Shown: in pieces, positions 17,268-45,878 of the stretch
Numbering within the stretch: position 1 is the first letter of the stretch
Layout of the letters: each line of letters opens with the position of its first letter
Position numbers and translations under genes: made by a program
Assembly: GCA_902782665.1 (NCBI GenBank)
Contig: CACZOA010000027.1
Span: 1-64,000, forward strand
Length of the DNA stretch: 64,000 nucleotides
Source: an uncultured Bacteroidales bacterium
Lineage (GTDB): Bacteria > Bacteroidota > Bacteroidia > Bacteroidales > Paludibacteraceae
Direction of reading: 5' to 3'
Notes under the pieces: model-generated
Seen by the model: only the letters and a program-made list of their open reading frames with translations
Told to the model about the DNA's origin: nothing
Database searches by the model: none

Positions 17268-17629
17268 AACTTTATATTTTGTCAGTTTTATGTGAGTTTT
17301 TATTTCTATTTTTCTTAAATGTCCTCTTTTTTCGGTTCCAAAGTTATACTTTTTGTTCGTATGCTTGCATTTTGATATTTTTTAGCTTTTGTAATTTGTG
17401 ATGTGTGGTTTAAGAGTGTAAGGTAATATTTATATAAAATAAAAAAATGTAATTAATTTATAGGTGTTTGGTTATGATTTGTAACGGATCTTTCCACGTA
17501 CTTTACAGTGTAGTTTGGTAGGTTCATTTCCATTTTACTCTTTTCTTTCTGTTTTTTGTTATAAAAATGGGAATGTGTTACTGTGTTTTGCTGACATTTT
17601 TGTTTATATTTGTAGAAAATATTATAAAA
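17268..17629. promoter_or_regulatory. Divergent intergenic region between amt and the SseB-domain gene
   Basis: It holds no gene. It has a -7 element for amt on the minus strand (TAACTTTG, 17339-17346) and one for the right-hand gene on the plus strand (TATATTTG, 17605-17612). Neither has a consensus TTG at 19-20 bases. The rest is AT-rich. Confidence 0.5.
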
Positions 17630-19006
17630 ATGGGATTTTTCAATAAAATTTTCGGAAATAAAGAACAGGAGAAACCAAAAGACGAGTCAACGTCGGTTCC
17701 TGTAAAAGAGGCGGAAAATAACAAGCCAGAATCAAATAACGAGTCAGATCAAAAGTTTAATCCAGCGGATAAGTTTGATCCAACCAAAGTGAATAGTACG
17801 GCAGCCGCTAATGTTAATAGTGCGGAGCCAGTAGGAAAAGTTGATGAATCTCAGTTCAGATTCAGAAGCAATGATCCGGCTCAGAATATTCAGCAGGGCC
17901 AGCAGCAGATGCAGTTGAGTCTCAACATGAACATGGGAACACCTGTTGAGAGTGATGAGAAACGTACTGAGTTGTTGCAACAGTGTTTTAAGGGCCCTGA
18001 AGGATTGAAACTATTTGCTGGCAATACGATTCAGGAGAATCTGTTCGTGATGTCATACATGCAGAATGTGATGATTCCGAAAGCTCGTAACATGAAGAAG
18101 GATCAGGATGTGAAAGTTTTCAATAATCTTCTTGCTATCAACGCAAAGATGATGGTTGCCAAGATTGCATCACAGGAGAAAGTATGGATTACAATATGTA
18201 AGACTACGGGTTATCCGTATGAATTGCAGCATGGAGCTTTGATCCTTGTTACAGATGAGAATAAGGAGGCTTTCATAAAGAAAATGGAAGAGGGGCATTA
18301 CGACGTGGATATCATGCCTGTGAAGAGAGAGGAGTTACACTTGTGTATGGATGCGCTTCGTAAAGACGGATATTTGGCTGTATTTGTTGCGGATGGTATC
18401 AGACCGGCTGTAGGAATTCCTATGCAAGAGTGGCCAACTGCTAAGAAAGAGGGTGAAAATTCAATTCAAAACCCACGTCTTCAGATCGCTATGACTGCAT
18501 TCTTCCAGGAAATGCGTCGAGAAAATATCGAGGAGGGTGCAAACAAAGATATGCACAACAGAATGTGTGCATACCTTGAGCATGAGATGATGGCGGCTAT
18601 TGTATCGTCTACTTATTTGATCCCAACTCGTAAAGATGAAAAAGGCAACATGATATACCCTGTGATGAATGGCAGCGATAAAACTTCTGCATTGGCTGTT
18701 TATACAGATATTGTGGAGCAGTCTAAGGAGTTTGGTGCTGATTGGATGACAACAACATTGTCTTATGATAAAGTAGTGGAGATGGTAGAGGCAATGAATG
18801 CGGATGCGTTTATCGTTAACAGTAAAGGCTTGTGTTTGACTGTTAATAAGAAAATCATGGAGCATTTGGCAGTTGTAAAGAAAGAGCTAAGAGAGGAGTA
18901 TGAAAAACAACAGACTCAGACTCAACCAGAAAACTTTGTTAATGTGATAGATGAAGAGAATGAAGATTTTGTTAATGAGACAGATGAAGAGAATGAAGAG
19001 TCATAA
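17630..19006 (+). CDS. SseB-domain protein with long N-terminal extension
   Basis: 458 residues from ATG 17630 (MGFFNKIFGNKEQ). An upstream in-frame start would put the promoter inside the gene and is rejected. Residues 1-105 are polar low complexity (Asn, Glu, Lys, Gln). The middle (about 110-320) is a folded region I do not recognise (GPEGLKLFAGNTIQENLFVM). Residues about 315-440 resemble the SseB N-terminal domain (AAIVSSTYLIPTR, GNMIYPVMNG, ADAFIVNSKGLCLTVNK). SseB is named for serine sensitivity in E. coli and its biochemical role is unknown. The C-terminus is acidic with a duplicated EENEDFVNETDEENE motif. Confidence 0.75.
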   Translation: MGFFNKIFGNKEQEKPKDESTSVPVKEAENNKPESNNESDQKFNPADKFDPTKVNSTAAANVNSAEPVGKVDESQFRFRSNDPAQNIQQGQQQMQLSLNMNMGTPVESDEKRTELLQQCFKGPEGLKLFAGNTIQENLFVMSYMQNVMIPKARNMKKDQDVKVFNNLLAINAKMMVAKIASQEKVWITICKTTGYPYELQHGALILVTDENKEAFIKKMEEGHYDVDIMPVKREELHLCMDALRKDGYLAVFVADGIRPAVGIPMQEWPTAKKEGENSIQNPRLQIAMTAFFQEMRRENIEEGANKDMHNRMCAYLEHEMMAAIVSSTYLIPTRKDEKGNMIYPVMNGSDKTSALAVYTDIVEQSKEFGADWMTTTLSYDKVVEMVEAMNADAFIVNSKGLCLTVNKKIMEHLAVVKKELREEYEKQQTQTQPENFVNVIDEENEDFVNETDEENEES

Positions 19007-19032
19007 AACAGGAATCTGATTGTAAAAAAATA

Positions 19033-19064
19033 AAAAGGCGAGCCAATTTGGCTCGCCTTTTTTG
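19033..19064. terminator. Bidirectional terminator
   Basis: AAAGGCGAGCCAA-TTTGGCTCGCCTTT, a 12-base stem with A and T runs on both sides. It ends the SseB-domain gene and lies just after the stop of the converging WD40-like gene. Confidence 0.92.
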
Positions 19065-19074
19065 TTTGATTATG

Positions 19075-41800: not shown

Positions 41801-42443
41801 TTTGGCAGATATGATTTTGGTAAATAAGACAAAAGCTAAAACACATGTCTTCCCAAGATTCCAGTCTGATTCAACAACAGTTCCTGCTAATGGAAGAATA
41901 TTGCTTTGGGCAGACGGTAATGCCGATGAAGGTCCACGTCACTTGAATTTCAAACTTTCTGCGGATGTCTCTCAGCAGTTGATCTTGATGCAGACCTACA
42001 AGGGTAAGAACGATACATTGGATGTTTTCGCTACCCAGACACATCCTAAGAACGGAAGTTATGGACGTAAAACAGATGGATCTAGTGACATAGTTGTTTT
42101 TGCAAATTGTTCGACAACGGCTAATTTCGGTTATGCGATAGCATCTCCTCGTGATGGTAATGGAGACGTTTTGTGTGATGCGGATATTATGGCAGGAGAA
42201 AAATTGCTTGACACAGGTATTGTGATCTATCCTAATCCAGTGGATAATACATTGTTTGTAGAGGTTAACTCAAAAGGCTCTCATCAAATTCAGATCACAG
42301 ATTGTATGTCACGTAGAGTGGTTGAACAATATTCTGATGAGAATGTGACAGCGGTTGATGTGAATAAATTGACTTCAGGTGTTTATGTCATCTCAGTCAT
42401 CACAGATGAGTCAACTTATACGACAAGATTTATCAAGAAGTAA
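38859..42443 (+). CDS. Secreted CotH/lamin-tail protein with T9SS sorting domain
   Basis: 1194 residues from ATG 38859 (MKNMILRKLTTIMLL); upstream in-frame sequence is the promoter. In order: a signal peptide; a first lamin-tail domain (about 25-140, INEIMPCN...WIEFYNDGD); a chitobiase/FN3-like domain (about 165-250, YYTTDGSTPTEESKLYEGP); a CotH kinase-like domain (about 255-660, with RERTNEDYVFHN and WIVYDTDFGYGMYSD); a jelly-roll domain (about 745-905); a second lamin-tail domain (about 930-1060, INEVCSSNNKT...WIEIYNAGD); and a C-terminal T9SS type A sorting domain (about 1115-1194, IYPNPVDNTLFVEV...LTSGVYVISV). It should be exported and surface-attached. Whether the CotH domain phosphorylates proteins here is unknown. 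Confidence 0.9.
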   Translation: MKNMILRKLTTIMLLATSLGMSATVKINEIMPCNISAYMDGSTYDFPSWIEFYNDGDAVDLKGAIVTAYKESGKVDWTGEFKESHKIPEGYSILAFYGDEEVKPSSSTILGSFPKNLEYKAGKLEIKFADGKTISMTYPLQLPNVSYGDGGYMEPTPKTKNSKAFSSRVPTPKFVTKPGFYFGEESKKISLSCDMEGAVIYYTTDGSTPTEESKLYEGPIEIKENKPIRAKAFVEGQLASDVLTGTFILKSPYSESCTGKDLPVVAIVTDEVFLKDDEIGICVKGTNGVAGPSSCVGEKANYNRDWSRPAFFEYFEDGDLKCSQKIEIGVTGGCSRQESYKVKSMKMKASKKTGNNRFGYTKFFKDKPFKEVKSLQIRNGGNGYGSLRCRDGFMQSLGKEMGIDYQGYQPVAYYINGKYHGLMGLRERTNEDYVFHNYGLDEDEVDEVSLKLEQVFVVAGSGDPYHEMISYVENHYSDPDFYEQLSLRMDIDEYIHFQILEQFIVNTDWPGNNTKIWRKKKGGKFRWIVYDTDFGYGMYSDWAPNYCNANLNMMDFAMGVGDAVNWGNGYDLGGGSYQFNEKAKWKTTLFYHCMQNEDFKWRFATEFLKQLNTNLTEERIMAKWDSIASLVKKDFCATKEVSGSVNDYTDGIKSFTSTRCRKIKEQLLSRFDMSDTKVKFDFKVILPDELSSVDYLLNKELKNDVSYSMSAYVGQKIKIEPELPAGYKVKNWHLSDSLVDTRDLITKATEWTYFYDSIMPAKNWMATDYDDSKWSVGKGKFGYASDRDYDTKLDYGKDKENKYLTAYFRTTVDCDRDNEFKKVSFKVMYDDAAVVYVNGTKVAVYNLPKDTTYTYDMLAVVEDGYVNDDEASFSIDGSLFKKGKNVIAVEIHQNEPESSDMTMKLTASSVSTAKSEVEGDIFEGKVGKDMTVKLYVEEDPDYSRPQLFINEVCSSNNKTVDEFGEKPDWIEIYNAGDTDVDLADMILVNKTKAKTHVFPRFQSDSTTVPANGRILLWADGNADEGPRHLNFKLSADVSQQLILMQTYKGKNDTLDVFATQTHPKNGSYGRKTDGSSDIVVFANCSTTANFGYAIASPRDGNGDVLCDADIMAGEKLLDTGIVIYPNPVDNTLFVEVNSKGSHQIQITDCMSRRVVEQYSDENVTAVDVNKLTSGVYVISVITDESTYTTRFIKK

Positions 42444-42472
42444 AAAAGTTTTACAAAAAAGTGCAAGATAAA

Positions 42473-42502
42473 TTGTCATAATCTCATTTTTATGTAATTT
42501 TG
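42473..42502 (+). promoter_or_regulatory. Promoter of the his operon
   Basis: TTG (42473-42475), 19 bases, then TAATTTTG (42495-42502), a full consensus. Transcription would start near 42509, about ten bases before the leader peptide ATG. Confidence 0.75.
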
Positions 42503-42519
42503 TAGAAAATATTAAGAAA

Positions 42520-42609
42520 ATGAGATTTCGCAGATTACATAAGCACCATCATGAGCATTGTATAGAAAATGATGCAAGTGAGCTTTGTGTGTGTTCTGCA
42601 AAACATTAA
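42520..42609 (+). CDS. hisL: Histidine operon leader peptide
   Basis: A 29-residue peptide with sequence MRFRRLHKHHHEHCIENDAS... and ending SAKH. Five of the seven codons at positions 7-13 are His (CAT/CAC). It starts about ten bases after the predicted transcription start and is followed 11 bases after its stop by a terminator, which is in turn 24 bases before hisG. This is the classical layout of ribosome-mediated attenuation: if His-tRNA is scarce the ribosome stalls on the His codons and the terminator does not form. The peptide needs no function of its own. The name hisL follows the enteric analogue by arrangement, not by homology. Confidence 0.85.
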   Translation: MRFRRLHKHHHEHCIENDASELCVCSAKH

Positions 42610-42634
42610 ATAGAGGAACGAAGGAGGCTTACTT
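42576..42634 (+). promoter_or_regulatory. Antiterminator pairing of the his attenuator
   Basis: CAAGTGAGCT (42575-42584), inside the leader peptide gene after the His codons, can pair over ten bases (two G-U) with GGCTTACTTG (42626-42635), which contains most of the 5' arm of the terminator. The two structures exclude each other. A further pairing GCA(cc)ATCAT (42543-42552) with ATGATGC (42569-42575) could hold the upstream arm when the ribosome does not stall. Confidence 0.6.
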
Positions 42635-42655
42635 GAAAGGTAGGTCTCCTTTTTT
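42621..42655 (+). terminator. Attenuator terminator of the his operon
   Basis: AAGGAGGCTTAC-TTGAAAG-GTAGGTCTCCTT (12-base stem with two G-T pairs) followed by a run of T. It lies between the leader peptide and hisG. Confidence 0.85.
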
Positions 42656-42679
42656 ATAAAACCATTACAAATTCAAATT

Positions 42680-43537
42680 ATGTTAAGAATAGCAGTTCAG
42701 GCAAAAGGACGTCTATTTGAAGAGACGATGACGATGTTGGAAGAGTCGAGCATCAAAGTAGAGTCAGGAAAGAGAACATTGTTGGTGAAAGCCAAGAATT
42801 TCCCTGTGGAGATTCTTTATTTGAGAGATGACGATATTCCTCAGGCGGTTGCAACAGGTATCGCTGATGTCGGCATCGTAGGTGAGAACGAGTTTGAGGA
42901 GAAGGGAGAAGACGCAGATATCATCAAGCGTCTTGATTTCAGCAAATGCCGTCTATCTTTGGCTATACCAAAGGCAGCAGACTATAATGGAATCCAGTGG
43001 TTCAATGGCAAGAAGATTGCGACTTCTTATCCTCGTATCTTGAAAAACTTTTTGGATAAGAATGGTGTGAAAGCCGAGATCCACACTATCATGGGTAGTG
43101 TTGAGATCGCTCCTGGTATCGGAATGGCAGACTGTATCTTTGATATCGTAAGTTCTGGCTCAACATTGGTAAGCAACAACTTGAAAGAGGTTGAAGTTGC
43201 AATGTATTCTGAGGCTTTGCTTATCGGTAACAAGCATCTAAATGATGATGCAGAAAAGATGGCCACTTTGAAGGAGATTCTTTTCCGTTTCGATTCTTAC
43301 AAGAATGCGGAAGGAAAGAAGTATATCCTTTTGAACATTCCTAACGATAAGATCGACGAAGTATGTAAGATTCTTCCAGGAATGAAGTCTCCTACAGTTA
43401 CTCCACTTAAGCAGGAGGGTTGGTCATCTCTTCACTCTGTGATTGAGGAGAAAACTTTCTGGGATATCATCAGCCAGTTGAAGCAATTGGGCGCTGAGGG
43501 TATTCTTGTGGTTCCTATTGAAAAAATGATTCTCTAA
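42680..43537 (+). CDS. hisG: ATP phosphoribosyltransferase (long form)
   Basis: 285 residues: catalyses the first step of histidine biosynthesis, ATP + PRPP to phosphoribosyl-ATP. Catalytic part about 1-210: IAVQAKGRLFEETMTML, VATGIADVGIVGENE and the PRPP loop IGMADCIFDIVSSGSTLVSN. The C-terminal ACT-like domain (about 211-285, YILLNIPNDKIDEVCKILPGMKSPTVTPL) binds histidine for feedback inhibition, so no HisZ partner is needed. It is the first structural gene behind the attenuator, and its stop overlaps the hisD start (TAATG). Confidence 0.97.
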   Translation: MLRIAVQAKGRLFEETMTMLEESSIKVESGKRTLLVKAKNFPVEILYLRDDDIPQAVATGIADVGIVGENEFEEKGEDADIIKRLDFSKCRLSLAIPKAADYNGIQWFNGKKIATSYPRILKNFLDKNGVKAEIHTIMGSVEIAPGIGMADCIFDIVSSGSTLVSNNLKEVEVAMYSEALLIGNKHLNDDAEKMATLKEILFRFDSYKNAEGKKYILLNIPNDKIDEVCKILPGMKSPTVTPLKQEGWSSLHSVIEEKTFWDIISQLKQLGAEGILVVPIEKMIL

Positions 43538-44814
43538 TGAAGATAATCGAATATCCACAACATAAGGATTGGAAGACGTTGCTGTCTCGTCCGGCTCTCG
43601 ATAATAGTAGCTTGACAGAGACGGTGACTGCTGTGCTTGACGACATCAAAAGTCGTGGTGATGCAGCGGTAAAAGAGTATGAGTTGAAATTCGATAAGGT
43701 TCAGCTTGATTCTTTACAGGTGTCTGAGTCTGAAATCGCTGAGGCTGAGACTTTGGTGGCAGAAGAATTGAAGAATGCTATCCGTCTTGCGAAGAGCAAC
43801 ATCGAAAAATTCCATGCTGCTCAGGATCATGAACTTCCTCGTATCGAGACCATGCCTGGCGTGACTTGTTGGCAGAAGGCTATGCCGATTGAGAAGGTCG
43901 GCTTATATATTCCAGGTGGTACAGCTCCATTGTTTTCGACAGTGTTGATGTTGGCTGTCCCTGCCCGTATCGCAGGTTGCAAGGAAATAGTTCTTTGTAC
44001 TCCTCCTGCTAAAAACGGTAAGGTGCATCCTGCTGTATTGTTTGCGGCTAAAGTCGCAGGCGTGAGCAAAATATTCAAGATCGGTGGTGTACAGGCAATC
44101 GGTTCAATGGCATATGGTACGGAAAGCGTGCCGAAAGTCTACAAGATTTTTGGACCAGGCAACCAATATGTCACTGCAGCTAAGCAGAGAGTGTCGTTGA
44201 AAGATGTCGCTATTGATATGCCTGCAGGTCCAAGTGAGGTGGAGGTTATTGCTGACGAAACTGCAAATCCATCATTTGTGGCTGCTGATTTGTTGTCGCA
44301 GGCTGAGCATGGTGTAGATAGCCAGGCTGTCTGTATCACAACAAGCAAAGATCTTGCTGAGAAGGTTTTGGCTGAGGTTGAACGTCAGTTACAGTTGCTT
44401 CCTAGAAAGGAGATTGCGGAGAAGTCTGTCGCAAACAGCAAGATTATCTTGGTGAAAGATTTGGAGGAGGTCATCGACGTCACAAATGAATATGCACCTG
44501 AGCATCTGATTATATCTACGTCTAACTATATGCAGATCGCAGAGAGAATCACTAATGCAGGTTCTATTTTCTTGGGTCATTTGACTCCAGAAAGTGCAGG
44601 TGATTATGCTTCTGGAACAAACCATACTCTTCCTACAAATGGTTACGCAAAAGCATATAGCGGAGTAAACCTAGACAGTTTCCGTAAAAAGATCACTTAT
44701 CAGGAAATCACACCTGATGGTCTTCAGCGTATTGGAAACGCAATTGAGATAATGGCAGAGAATGAGCAATTATTCGCTCACAAGAATGCTGTTACTCTCA
44801 GAATGAACAAATAA
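43537..44814 (+). CDS. hisD: Histidinol dehydrogenase
   Basis: 425 residues: oxidises histidinol to histidine in two NAD-dependent steps, the last reactions of the pathway. Signatures: [74 protein letters not shown] and the zinc and catalytic histidines in [13 protein letters not shown] and ANEYAPEHL-like [10 protein letters not shown]. Length is normal. The stop region AACAAATAAAATTT is repeated 7 bases downstream (44827-44840) in the gap to hisC. Confidence 0.97.
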
Positions 44815-44846: not shown

Positions 44847-45878
44847 ATGAAAGAATTAAGTCAATTGGTTCGACCAAACATCCTCAAGCTAAAGCCATAC
44901 TCATGCGCACGTGATGAGTTTAAGGGCGAAGCGTCTGTCTATTTGGATGCTAACGAAAATCCACGTAATGATCCCTACAACAGGTATCCAGATCCATTGC
45001 AGTGGGCAGTTAAGCATCGTGTGGCGGAGGTGAAGCATGTGGATGCGAAGAACATATTGTTCGGAAATGGTAGCGATGAACCTATTGACTTGGTTTACCG
45101 TGCATTCTGCGAGCCAGGTGTTGATAATGTTGTGGCGATTGCTCCTACATATGGAATGTATGAGGTATGTGCAGATGTCAACAATGTTGAGTATCGCGCT
45201 GTCCTTTTGAAGGAAGGTTTTCAGATAGATGTCGACGCGATGCTTGCCGCAGTGGACGATCACACAAAAGTGATGTGGTTATGTTCGCCAAACAATCCTA
45301 CTGGCAATTGCTTGAAGGACGGAGATATTGAGAAACTATTGAAGGAGTTTGGTGGTATCGTCGTTATTGACGAGGCTTACTGGGATTTCTGCGGCAGAGA
45401 ATCGTATAGCCAGAAGTTGGCGAAGTATCCAAATATGATTGTGTTGCAGACATTCTCCAAGGCATGGGCAAGTGCGTCGGTGCGTTTGGGAATGGCATTC
45501 GCTTCTGAAGAGATTATTGGAATTTTGAACAAAATAAAATATCCATACAATATCAATAAACTTACTCAGGATTATGCGTTGAAGATTCTTAAGAATCCAG
45601 ACGTCATCAAGAATTGGGCAAAAGAGACTATTTCTCTTCGTTCTGATTTGGTTTATGAGTTGAAGGGATTCAATTTTGTTGAGAAGATTTATCCTACGGA
45701 TGCCAACTTCGTGTTGGTTAAGGTGACAGATGCCAACGGATTGTACGCTTATTTGACGGAGTGTGGAATAATAGTTAGAAATCGTCATCGTGTGCAGTTG
45801 TGTGGCAATTGTGTTCGTATTACGATTGGTACAAAAGAAGAAAATGAAGAGTTAATTAAAGCATTAAAGAAATATTGA
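44847..45878 (+). CDS. hisC: Histidinol-phosphate aminotransferase
   Basis: 343 residues, fold-type I PLP enzyme. Signatures: [19 protein letters not shown] at the N-terminus, [40 protein letters not shown] and the PLP lysine in [17 protein letters not shown]. It converts imidazole-acetol phosphate to histidinol phosphate. hisG-hisD-hisC is a usual Bacteroidota order, but the expected hisB does not follow; the next gene is a DUF3127 gene 1 base downstream. Confidence 0.96.

Follow-up and report, generated by a model that had tools for sequence, protein, structure and literature searches.

A probable ribosome-mediated histidine attenuator before hisGDC in an uncultured Bacteroidales bacterium, and its counterparts across Bacteroidota

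Background

Ribosome-mediated attenuation is a textbook case from Proteobacteria, and the his attenuator of E. coli combines a leader peptide with His codons, alternative hairpins and a terminator before hisG. A short ORF with a run of His codons also precedes hisG in the DNA analysed here, a stretch of 64,000 nucleotides from an uncultured Bacteroidales bacterium of the Paludibacteraceae (hereafter the window), which raises the question of whether a switch of the same kind controls histidine biosynthesis in this phylum. The original prediction for this locus had affirmed this, and had added that such control is little documented in the phylum. As far as the open-access literature shows, the description is fair, but the phylum is not undocumented in this respect: according to excerpts of PMC9723704, amino-acid operons show strong clues of control by leader-peptide attenuation, and hisG is preceded by a structured 5' element that is conserved in other Flavobacteriaceae and has no Rfam hits, and the Bacteroid-trp leader RNA (RF01692) is already listed in the excerpted text of PMC2864571. 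Further excerpts from the literature place His leaders in some Firmicutes (PMC2965389, PMC9413887), suggest that leader-peptide attenuators may have originated in gamma-proteobacteria (PMC3766115), and mention B. thetaiotaomicron sORFs reminiscent of leader peptides (PMC7366714). In the excerpted text of a study of the his genes of this superphylum (PMC8305728) the word 'leader' is absent, and attenuation is mentioned once, for E. coli and Salmonella.

The analysis presented below indicates that the region between the promoter and hisG is very probably a ribosome-mediated transcription attenuator of hisGDC that senses charged tRNA-His. Its interest lies mainly in the spread of the switch across Bacteroidota and in the extended leader of the window's clade.

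Results and discussion

Locus organization and promoter

The genes and upstream elements of the locus are as follows:

42473..42475, plus strand: weak -33 promoter element TTG, a partial fit only to the consensus TTTG
42495..42502, plus strand: -7 promoter element TAATTTTG, which fits TAnnTTTG
42520..42609, plus strand: leader peptide ORF of 29 amino acids, MRFRRLHKHHHEHCIENDASELCVCSAKH, with frame and His run kept in the relatives L004, L006, L008 and L060
42538..42558, plus strand: regulatory His codons 7, 9, 10, 11 and 13, which by the predicted fold also lie within the 5' arm of the protector hairpin
42680..43537, plus strand: hisG (TIGR00070 and TIGR03455 over cut-off)
43537..44814, plus strand: hisD (TIGR00069 over cut-off)
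44847..45878, plus strand: hisC (TIGR01141 over cut-off)

The profile matches bear out the identification of the gene 3' of the leader as hisG, and the gene order after the terminator is hisG, hisD, hisC. The closest relatives of this hisG come from metagenome-assembled genomes labelled Bacteroidales, Paludibacteraceae or Candidatus Scybalocola fimicaballi. The 5' neighbour encodes a CotH/LTD protein with a type IX sorting tail; it reads in the direction of the leader and ends at 42443, 76 nt before the leader start. The distance from the leader stop to hisG is 70 nt. The hisB gene of the same genome is found on a contig other than that of hisGDC (L254, G000:C78), and a qualifying His leader was found before hisB neither in this genome nor in seven relatives (8 loci).

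According to the excerpted text of PMC7366714, Bacteroidota lack the classical promoter boxes and instead use a consensus of TAnnTTTG at -7 and TTTG at about -33. The 'consensus promoter' predicted for this locus holds for the -7 half; at -33 only TTG is present. A sigma-70 pattern scan of 42300-42800 found no plus-strand site, as expected for Bacteroidota. Of 127 loci, 92 have a TAnnTTTG element no more than 70 nt 5' of the leader start, against 8.5 expected.

The leader ORF (42520-42609) comprises 29 codons and a TAA stop at 42607-42609. His is encoded at codons 7, 9, 10, 11, 13 and 29, and the first five of these fall within seven codons, precisely as predicted. Dinucleotide shuffling of the upstream region, repeated 5000 times, produced an ORF with four or more His in seven codons on 11 occasions and never one with five or more. 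In the clade members L004, L006, L008 and L060 a reading frame of 28-29 amino acids is retained, and the His run survives both synonymous change (codon 9, CAC to CAT in L006) and rearrangement (HTHIHHHH in L008).

Mutually exclusive hairpins between the leader and hisG

The predicted RNA elements downstream of the promoter are:

42530..42599, plus strand: protector (1:2, possible pause) hairpin, in which the His-codon stretch pairs with strand 2 and the GU-rich run that follows it (-24.2 kcal/mol, z -3.2)
42575..42586, plus strand: strand 2, the 5' arm of the antiterminator, pairing with 42624-42635 (p = 0.005 against 200 shuffles)
42592..42597, plus strand: 5' side of the antiterminator upper helix, pairing with 42615-42620
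42624..42635, plus strand: strand 3, common to antiterminator and terminator, by pairing and by covariation of both helices
42620..42655, plus strand: intrinsic terminator (3:4) with a T-run at 42650-42655 (-18.7 kcal/mol, z -4.5)

When folded apart, the protector (42530-42600; -24.2 kcal/mol, z -3.2), the antiterminator (42575-42636; -20.0 kcal/mol, z -4.3) and the terminator (42620-42655; -18.7 kcal/mol, z -4.5) each beat all 200 of their shuffles, and the whole stretch 42515-42665 folds at -43.7 kcal/mol (z -4.6). The terminator, whose stem is formed by 42620-42634 and 42638-42652, agrees with the predicted one in having a T-run; a simple pattern scan missed it on the plus strand. In the protector, 42536-42561, which contains the His codons, pairs with 42569-42584 (strand 2 and its surroundings) and with 42588-42593 in the GU-rich run. 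The protector and the terminator are compatible and are both present in the minimum-energy fold, whereas the antiterminator, which has strand 3 in common with the terminator, excludes both. The ten-base alternative pairing originally proposed, 42575-42584 with 42626-42635, is exact, with ten standard pairs of which two are G.U. The antiterminator is longer than first noted: it reaches 42586/42624 and carries the upper helix 42592-42597/42615-42620, which closes a loop at 42598-42614. In the relative L022, 10 of 200 own shuffles matched or beat the fold of the corresponding 82-nt piece.

An attenuator is expected to have tandem codons for the end product in a short ORF before its own biosynthetic operon, an intrinsic terminator between this ORF and the first structural gene, and an antiterminator that competes with this terminator for strand 3, so that only one of the two can form. 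All three are present here, the terminator having a predicted energy of -18.7 kcal/mol and a T-run. The sequence is therefore supported as holding the parts of a ribosome-mediated histidine attenuator, with a mixed state at the stop codon in the model described below. From these parts we infer the stalling of the ribosome, the order of folding, the effect of its footprint and the physiological response as follows. Without translation, strand 1 (the His-codon stretch) would pair with strand 2, the terminator 3:4 would form, and transcription would stop near 42655. When histidine is scarce, a ribosome stalled on the His codons would disrupt 1:2 and leave strand 2 free to pair with strand 3 as the latter emerges; the terminator would then come too late and hisG would be transcribed. 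When histidine is plentiful, the ribosome would cross strand 2 and arrive at the stop codon. This codon (42607-42609) is part of the antiterminator loop (42598-42614), and a ribosome there would cover most of the antiterminator upper helix, while 1:2 would partly re-form behind it and the terminator would form.

A ribosome-position model of the switch

We computed pairing probabilities for growing transcripts that end 7, 5 or 3 nt before the terminator end (-7, -5 and -3), or contain the complete terminator, with a ribosome placed at each codon in turn as a mask that covers the RNA from 15 nt 5' to 12 nt 3' of the first base of the A-site. At -5, a ribosome with its A-site on codons 7-13 gives antiterminator probabilities of 0.95-0.97, and one on codons 16-27 gives 0.00, with 0.92-0.93 for the terminator. 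The latter state also prevails at the stop codon (antiterminator/terminator 0.01/0.92) and without a ribosome (0.00/0.93), with codon 29 giving a mixed state (0.39/0.55). Strict specificity for His is not a property of the model, as the antiterminator is also favoured at codons 3-6, 14 and 15 (0.65-0.96). The choice of transcript end has a marked effect. At -7 the antiterminator still prevails with the ribosome at the window's stop codon (0.81/0.15); at -3 the terminator is already ahead at codons 7 (0.22/0.73) and 13 (0.38/0.58), and codons 9-12 hold the antiterminator (0.84-0.95). With the complete terminator, the terminator wins at every ribosome position tested, which implies that antitermination must be kinetic. 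A second ribosome footprint gave the same picture for most codons.

The difference in terminator probability between late positions and the His codons is 0.92 in the window. In 200 shuffles of 42559-42619 the mean difference was 0.02, with 0.5 or more in four and 0.92 in none. Four relatives were also modelled. The direction of the switch is that of the window in L022 and, for four of the six His codons, in L009; L215 shows a clear switch only at -7, the earliest end tested, and a weak one at -5. L008, a close relative with an extended leader, switches on its His codons; with the ribosome at its stop codon the antiterminator/terminator probabilities are 0.96/0.01 at -5, and the antiterminator still has 0.66 at -3. 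This counts as a point against the simple model in L008. The behaviour in which a stall frees strand 2 and onward translation restores the terminator is thus seen in the window model at -5, whereas the window with a ribosome at the stop codon at -7, and L008, depart from it.

Distribution of the leader among hisG upstreams

The comparison drew on 57 hisG loci from genome records and on further loci from genomes of the family (64 loci from 80 genomes with hisG), the order (56 from 57) and the phylum (70 loci taken from 171 genomes with hisG, namely the 30 best-scoring and 40 chosen). Once duplicates, L011 (too short), and L035 and L246 (without a usable hisG start) were removed, 213 distinct upstreams were available, with leader starts assigned by script. 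Of these, 129 contain an ORF with four or more His in seven codons, against 0.37 expected from shuffles (the upstreams share descent, and these are not phylogenetic p-values); the same test for any other residue reaches at most 47 of 213, the maximum being for Leu. The conserved His codons sought in relatives are accordingly present. By set, the ORF occurs in the window's own locus (1/1), 32/51 near relatives, 2/39 family members outside the near set, 39/53 loci of the order, 27/33 of the class and 28/36 of the rest of the phylum. The host's own family has a His leader in 17 of its 64 fetched hisG loci (noted as L121-L150 and L177-L210), which may reflect repeated loss or relocation of the switch.

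When the leader position is limited, 127 of the 213 upstreams have a leader, 107 of these 127 a terminator below -8 kcal/mol, and 63 of these 107 a significant antiterminator duplex. A wider selection examined 142 loci, of which 127 had a leader, a terminator candidate and a long enough interval, and yielded a duplex at p<0.05 in 75, with about 6 expected. In this wider selection the significant duplexes are distributed as 1/1 (own), 27/31 (near), 1/2 (family), 19/42 (order), 19/31 (class) and 8/20 (phylum).

A different arrangement is seen in 14 distant, phylum-level loci (L092-L096, L102, L110-L113, L115, L241, L245 and L247), which have a His-containing leader, with at least four His in seven codons in 13 of them, and lack a terminator below -8 kcal/mol. 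Between their leader stop and the hisG ATG lie 57-83 nt with a G content of 4-11% and a pyrimidine content of 61-77%, as compared with means of 18.7% and 47% in the 107 loci with a terminator, where the intervals were cut slightly differently. These loci are possibly subject to Rho-dependent or translational control. At the class level seven further loci are without a strong terminator.

Covariation of the alternative helices

Compensatory change was examined in an alignment (A1) of 28 Bacteroidales rows picked by hand from 47 references, all of which had been pre-filtered for an antiterminator at p<=0.05 and a terminator energy cut of -10, so that the percentages of paired cells are biased upward. 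The strand 2 region appears to be out of register in two of the rows (L078 and L159). The leader, terminator and duplex counts of the preceding section are free of this selection. With this bias, 90.1% of the antiterminator cells and 93.4% of the terminator cells are paired, values that fall to at most 42.1% and 58.6%, respectively, when the partners are slid by 1-3 columns. Two-sided changes affect 23 cells of the antiterminator (shuffled mean 8.4) and 38 of the terminator (shuffled mean 15.4), with none of 500 shuffles as high in either case. Counted by pairs, they occur at 5 of 9 pairs of the antiterminator (mean 3.1; 19/500 shuffles as high) and at 8 of 12 pairs of the terminator (mean 5.7; 17/500). 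At three antiterminator pairs the window has C-G, A-U and A-U where the commonest states in A1 are U-A, C-G and G-C. In these 28 selected sequences the compensatory changes looked for in both helices are therefore above the shuffled and the slid controls.

Alternative explanations

The hairpin might be a mere terminator of the upstream CotH/LTD gene, with the His-rich ORF beside it by coincidence. This gene and the leader are codirectional and 76 nt apart, and the pattern scan, which also missed the real terminator, shows no other plus-strand terminator there. We regard this explanation as highly improbable, given that the -7 promoter element and the leader stand between the gene and the terminator, that His leaders precede hisG in 129 of 213 upstreams against 0.37 expected, and that both helices covary. 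His-rich peptides can bind metals, and the leader could instead be a functional small protein, for example a metal-binding one, rather than a regulatory ORF; the 28-29-aa frame kept in L004, L006, L008 and L060 would be in line with this. Such a role is just as hard to credit: across lineages it is the His run and its position that are conserved while the leader length and the remainder vary, the window leader matches no NCBIfam or Pfam family, and the coding stretch doubles as the RNA arms of the alternative hairpins.

It could also be that the leader acts mainly on translation, by coupling, reinitiation or masking of the hisG start, and not on transcription termination. Excerpts of PMC4833913 propose that leader ORFs close to genes raise translation via reinitiation, and the 14 phylum-level loci with a His-containing leader but without a strong terminator would fit such a role. 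The window, with its strong terminator and T-run and with 70 nt from the leader stop to hisG, is very unlikely to work in this way, and a terminator below -8 kcal/mol is present in 107 of the 127 loci with a His leader. Ribosome-mediated attenuation, as originally proposed, is in turn supported by the leader, the exclusive hairpins, the conservation and the covariation, and a response to histidine would be its expected consequence.

Geometry of the switch and the extended leader

In the window strand 2 begins 16 nt downstream of the last clustered His codon, and of the 74 loci counted, all with a significant antiterminator, 57 have its start 11-18 nt after that codon (one unpaired base counted). 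This would be the spacing expected if a stalled ribosome must leave strand 2 uncovered. In 67 of the 74 loci the leader stop either precedes the end of strand 2 or follows it by no more than 9 nt. In the window and in L004, L005, L006, L008 and L060 the stop is found 17-20 nt beyond the end of strand 2, and the sole other locus with such a late stop, L105 (19 nt), is regarded as doubtful. As L009, a candidate same-genus relative, keeps a short leader of 16 residues with its stop before strand 2, the extended leader of the window's clade looks like a recent change.

These observations can be joined in a reading that we offer tentatively, and which as a whole is somewhat doubtful. The clade's stop codon would have moved past strand 2, so that a fast ribosome, unlike in the classic scheme, crosses strand 2 and sits in the antiterminator loop over the upper helix while the hairpin of His codons and strand 2 re-forms behind it. 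The ancestor of Bacteroidota would already have had histidine attenuation, and in one or more lineages a G-poor, pyrimidine-rich run, which suggests Rho-dependent or translational control, would have replaced the intrinsic terminator. The short leaders, the extended leaders and the loci without a strong terminator form a natural variant series of one switch on which the rules of attenuation can be tested.

Relation to known leader RNAs

At gathering score the only Rfam match in the window is a tmRNA gene (RF00023, 53384-53779), with RF00514, RF01692 and the T-box RF00230 absent. At E<=10 the stretch 42380-42760 gives six matches, all far below gathering scores and neither RF00514 nor RF00230 among them, and no His leader family was found in 16 related loci. 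The locus resembles the his attenuator of E. coli and Salmonella (RF00514, His_leader) in its His-codon leader, alternative hairpins and terminator before hisG. It differs in that the window does not match the model, strand 2 lies within the leader ORF, and a single strand 3 serves both antiterminator and terminator. The Bacteroidete tryptophan peptide leader RNA (Bacteroid-trp, RF01692) is from the same phylum and likewise has a short leader with tandem regulatory codons, but these are Trp codons and the window does not match its model. The element described in excerpts of PMC9723704 shares the gene, the phylum and the lack of an Rfam hit; it comes, however, from Flavobacterium psychrophilum and genera of its family, and the excerpted description includes no leader sequence, antiterminator or other orders. 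The Firmicutes attenuators, as excerpted from PMC9413887, were likewise found by comparative genomics and have His-rich leaders with terminator and antiterminator hairpins, but belong to a different phylum. A covarying His attenuator that is spread through Bacteroidota, and for which no Rfam family was found, suggests wide use of leader peptides for amino-acid control in the phylum.

A covariance model of the terminator structure (R1) was discarded as evidence of a distinct RNA family, as it also matches ordinary terminators and trp and pheA leaders (for example the window at 18967-19067, 36 bits).

Other loci in the genome and its relatives

Two stretches of 38-44 nt, at 17595-17638 of the window and at G000:C90:8003-8040, are 84-87% identical to the region of the his promoter and leader start. 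The former (44 nt) was considered as a second attenuator and rejected: the likeness is to the promoter and start region, before another ORF, and no attenuator is seen in the sequence there. A match to the FopS sRNA (RF04319) at L054:9574-9641 falls in the same locus as hisG of an uncultured Phocaeicola. Bacteroid-trp was not found in the window's own genome with filters that were stricter and able to lose weak matches. Of 61 genomes from the host's family, 13 have it at E<=0.001 and 8 of these over cut-off, and nine of the ten leaders at such loci (L269-L278) contain WWW. Upstream of pheA in the window's genome (L266, G000:C9) there is a Phe/Tyr-rich leader, MQQRYFAYYYFFFFYFRR, followed by a terminator-like hairpin discernible by eye, and eight other pheA loci (L260-L265, L267 and L268) have Phe-rich leaders too.
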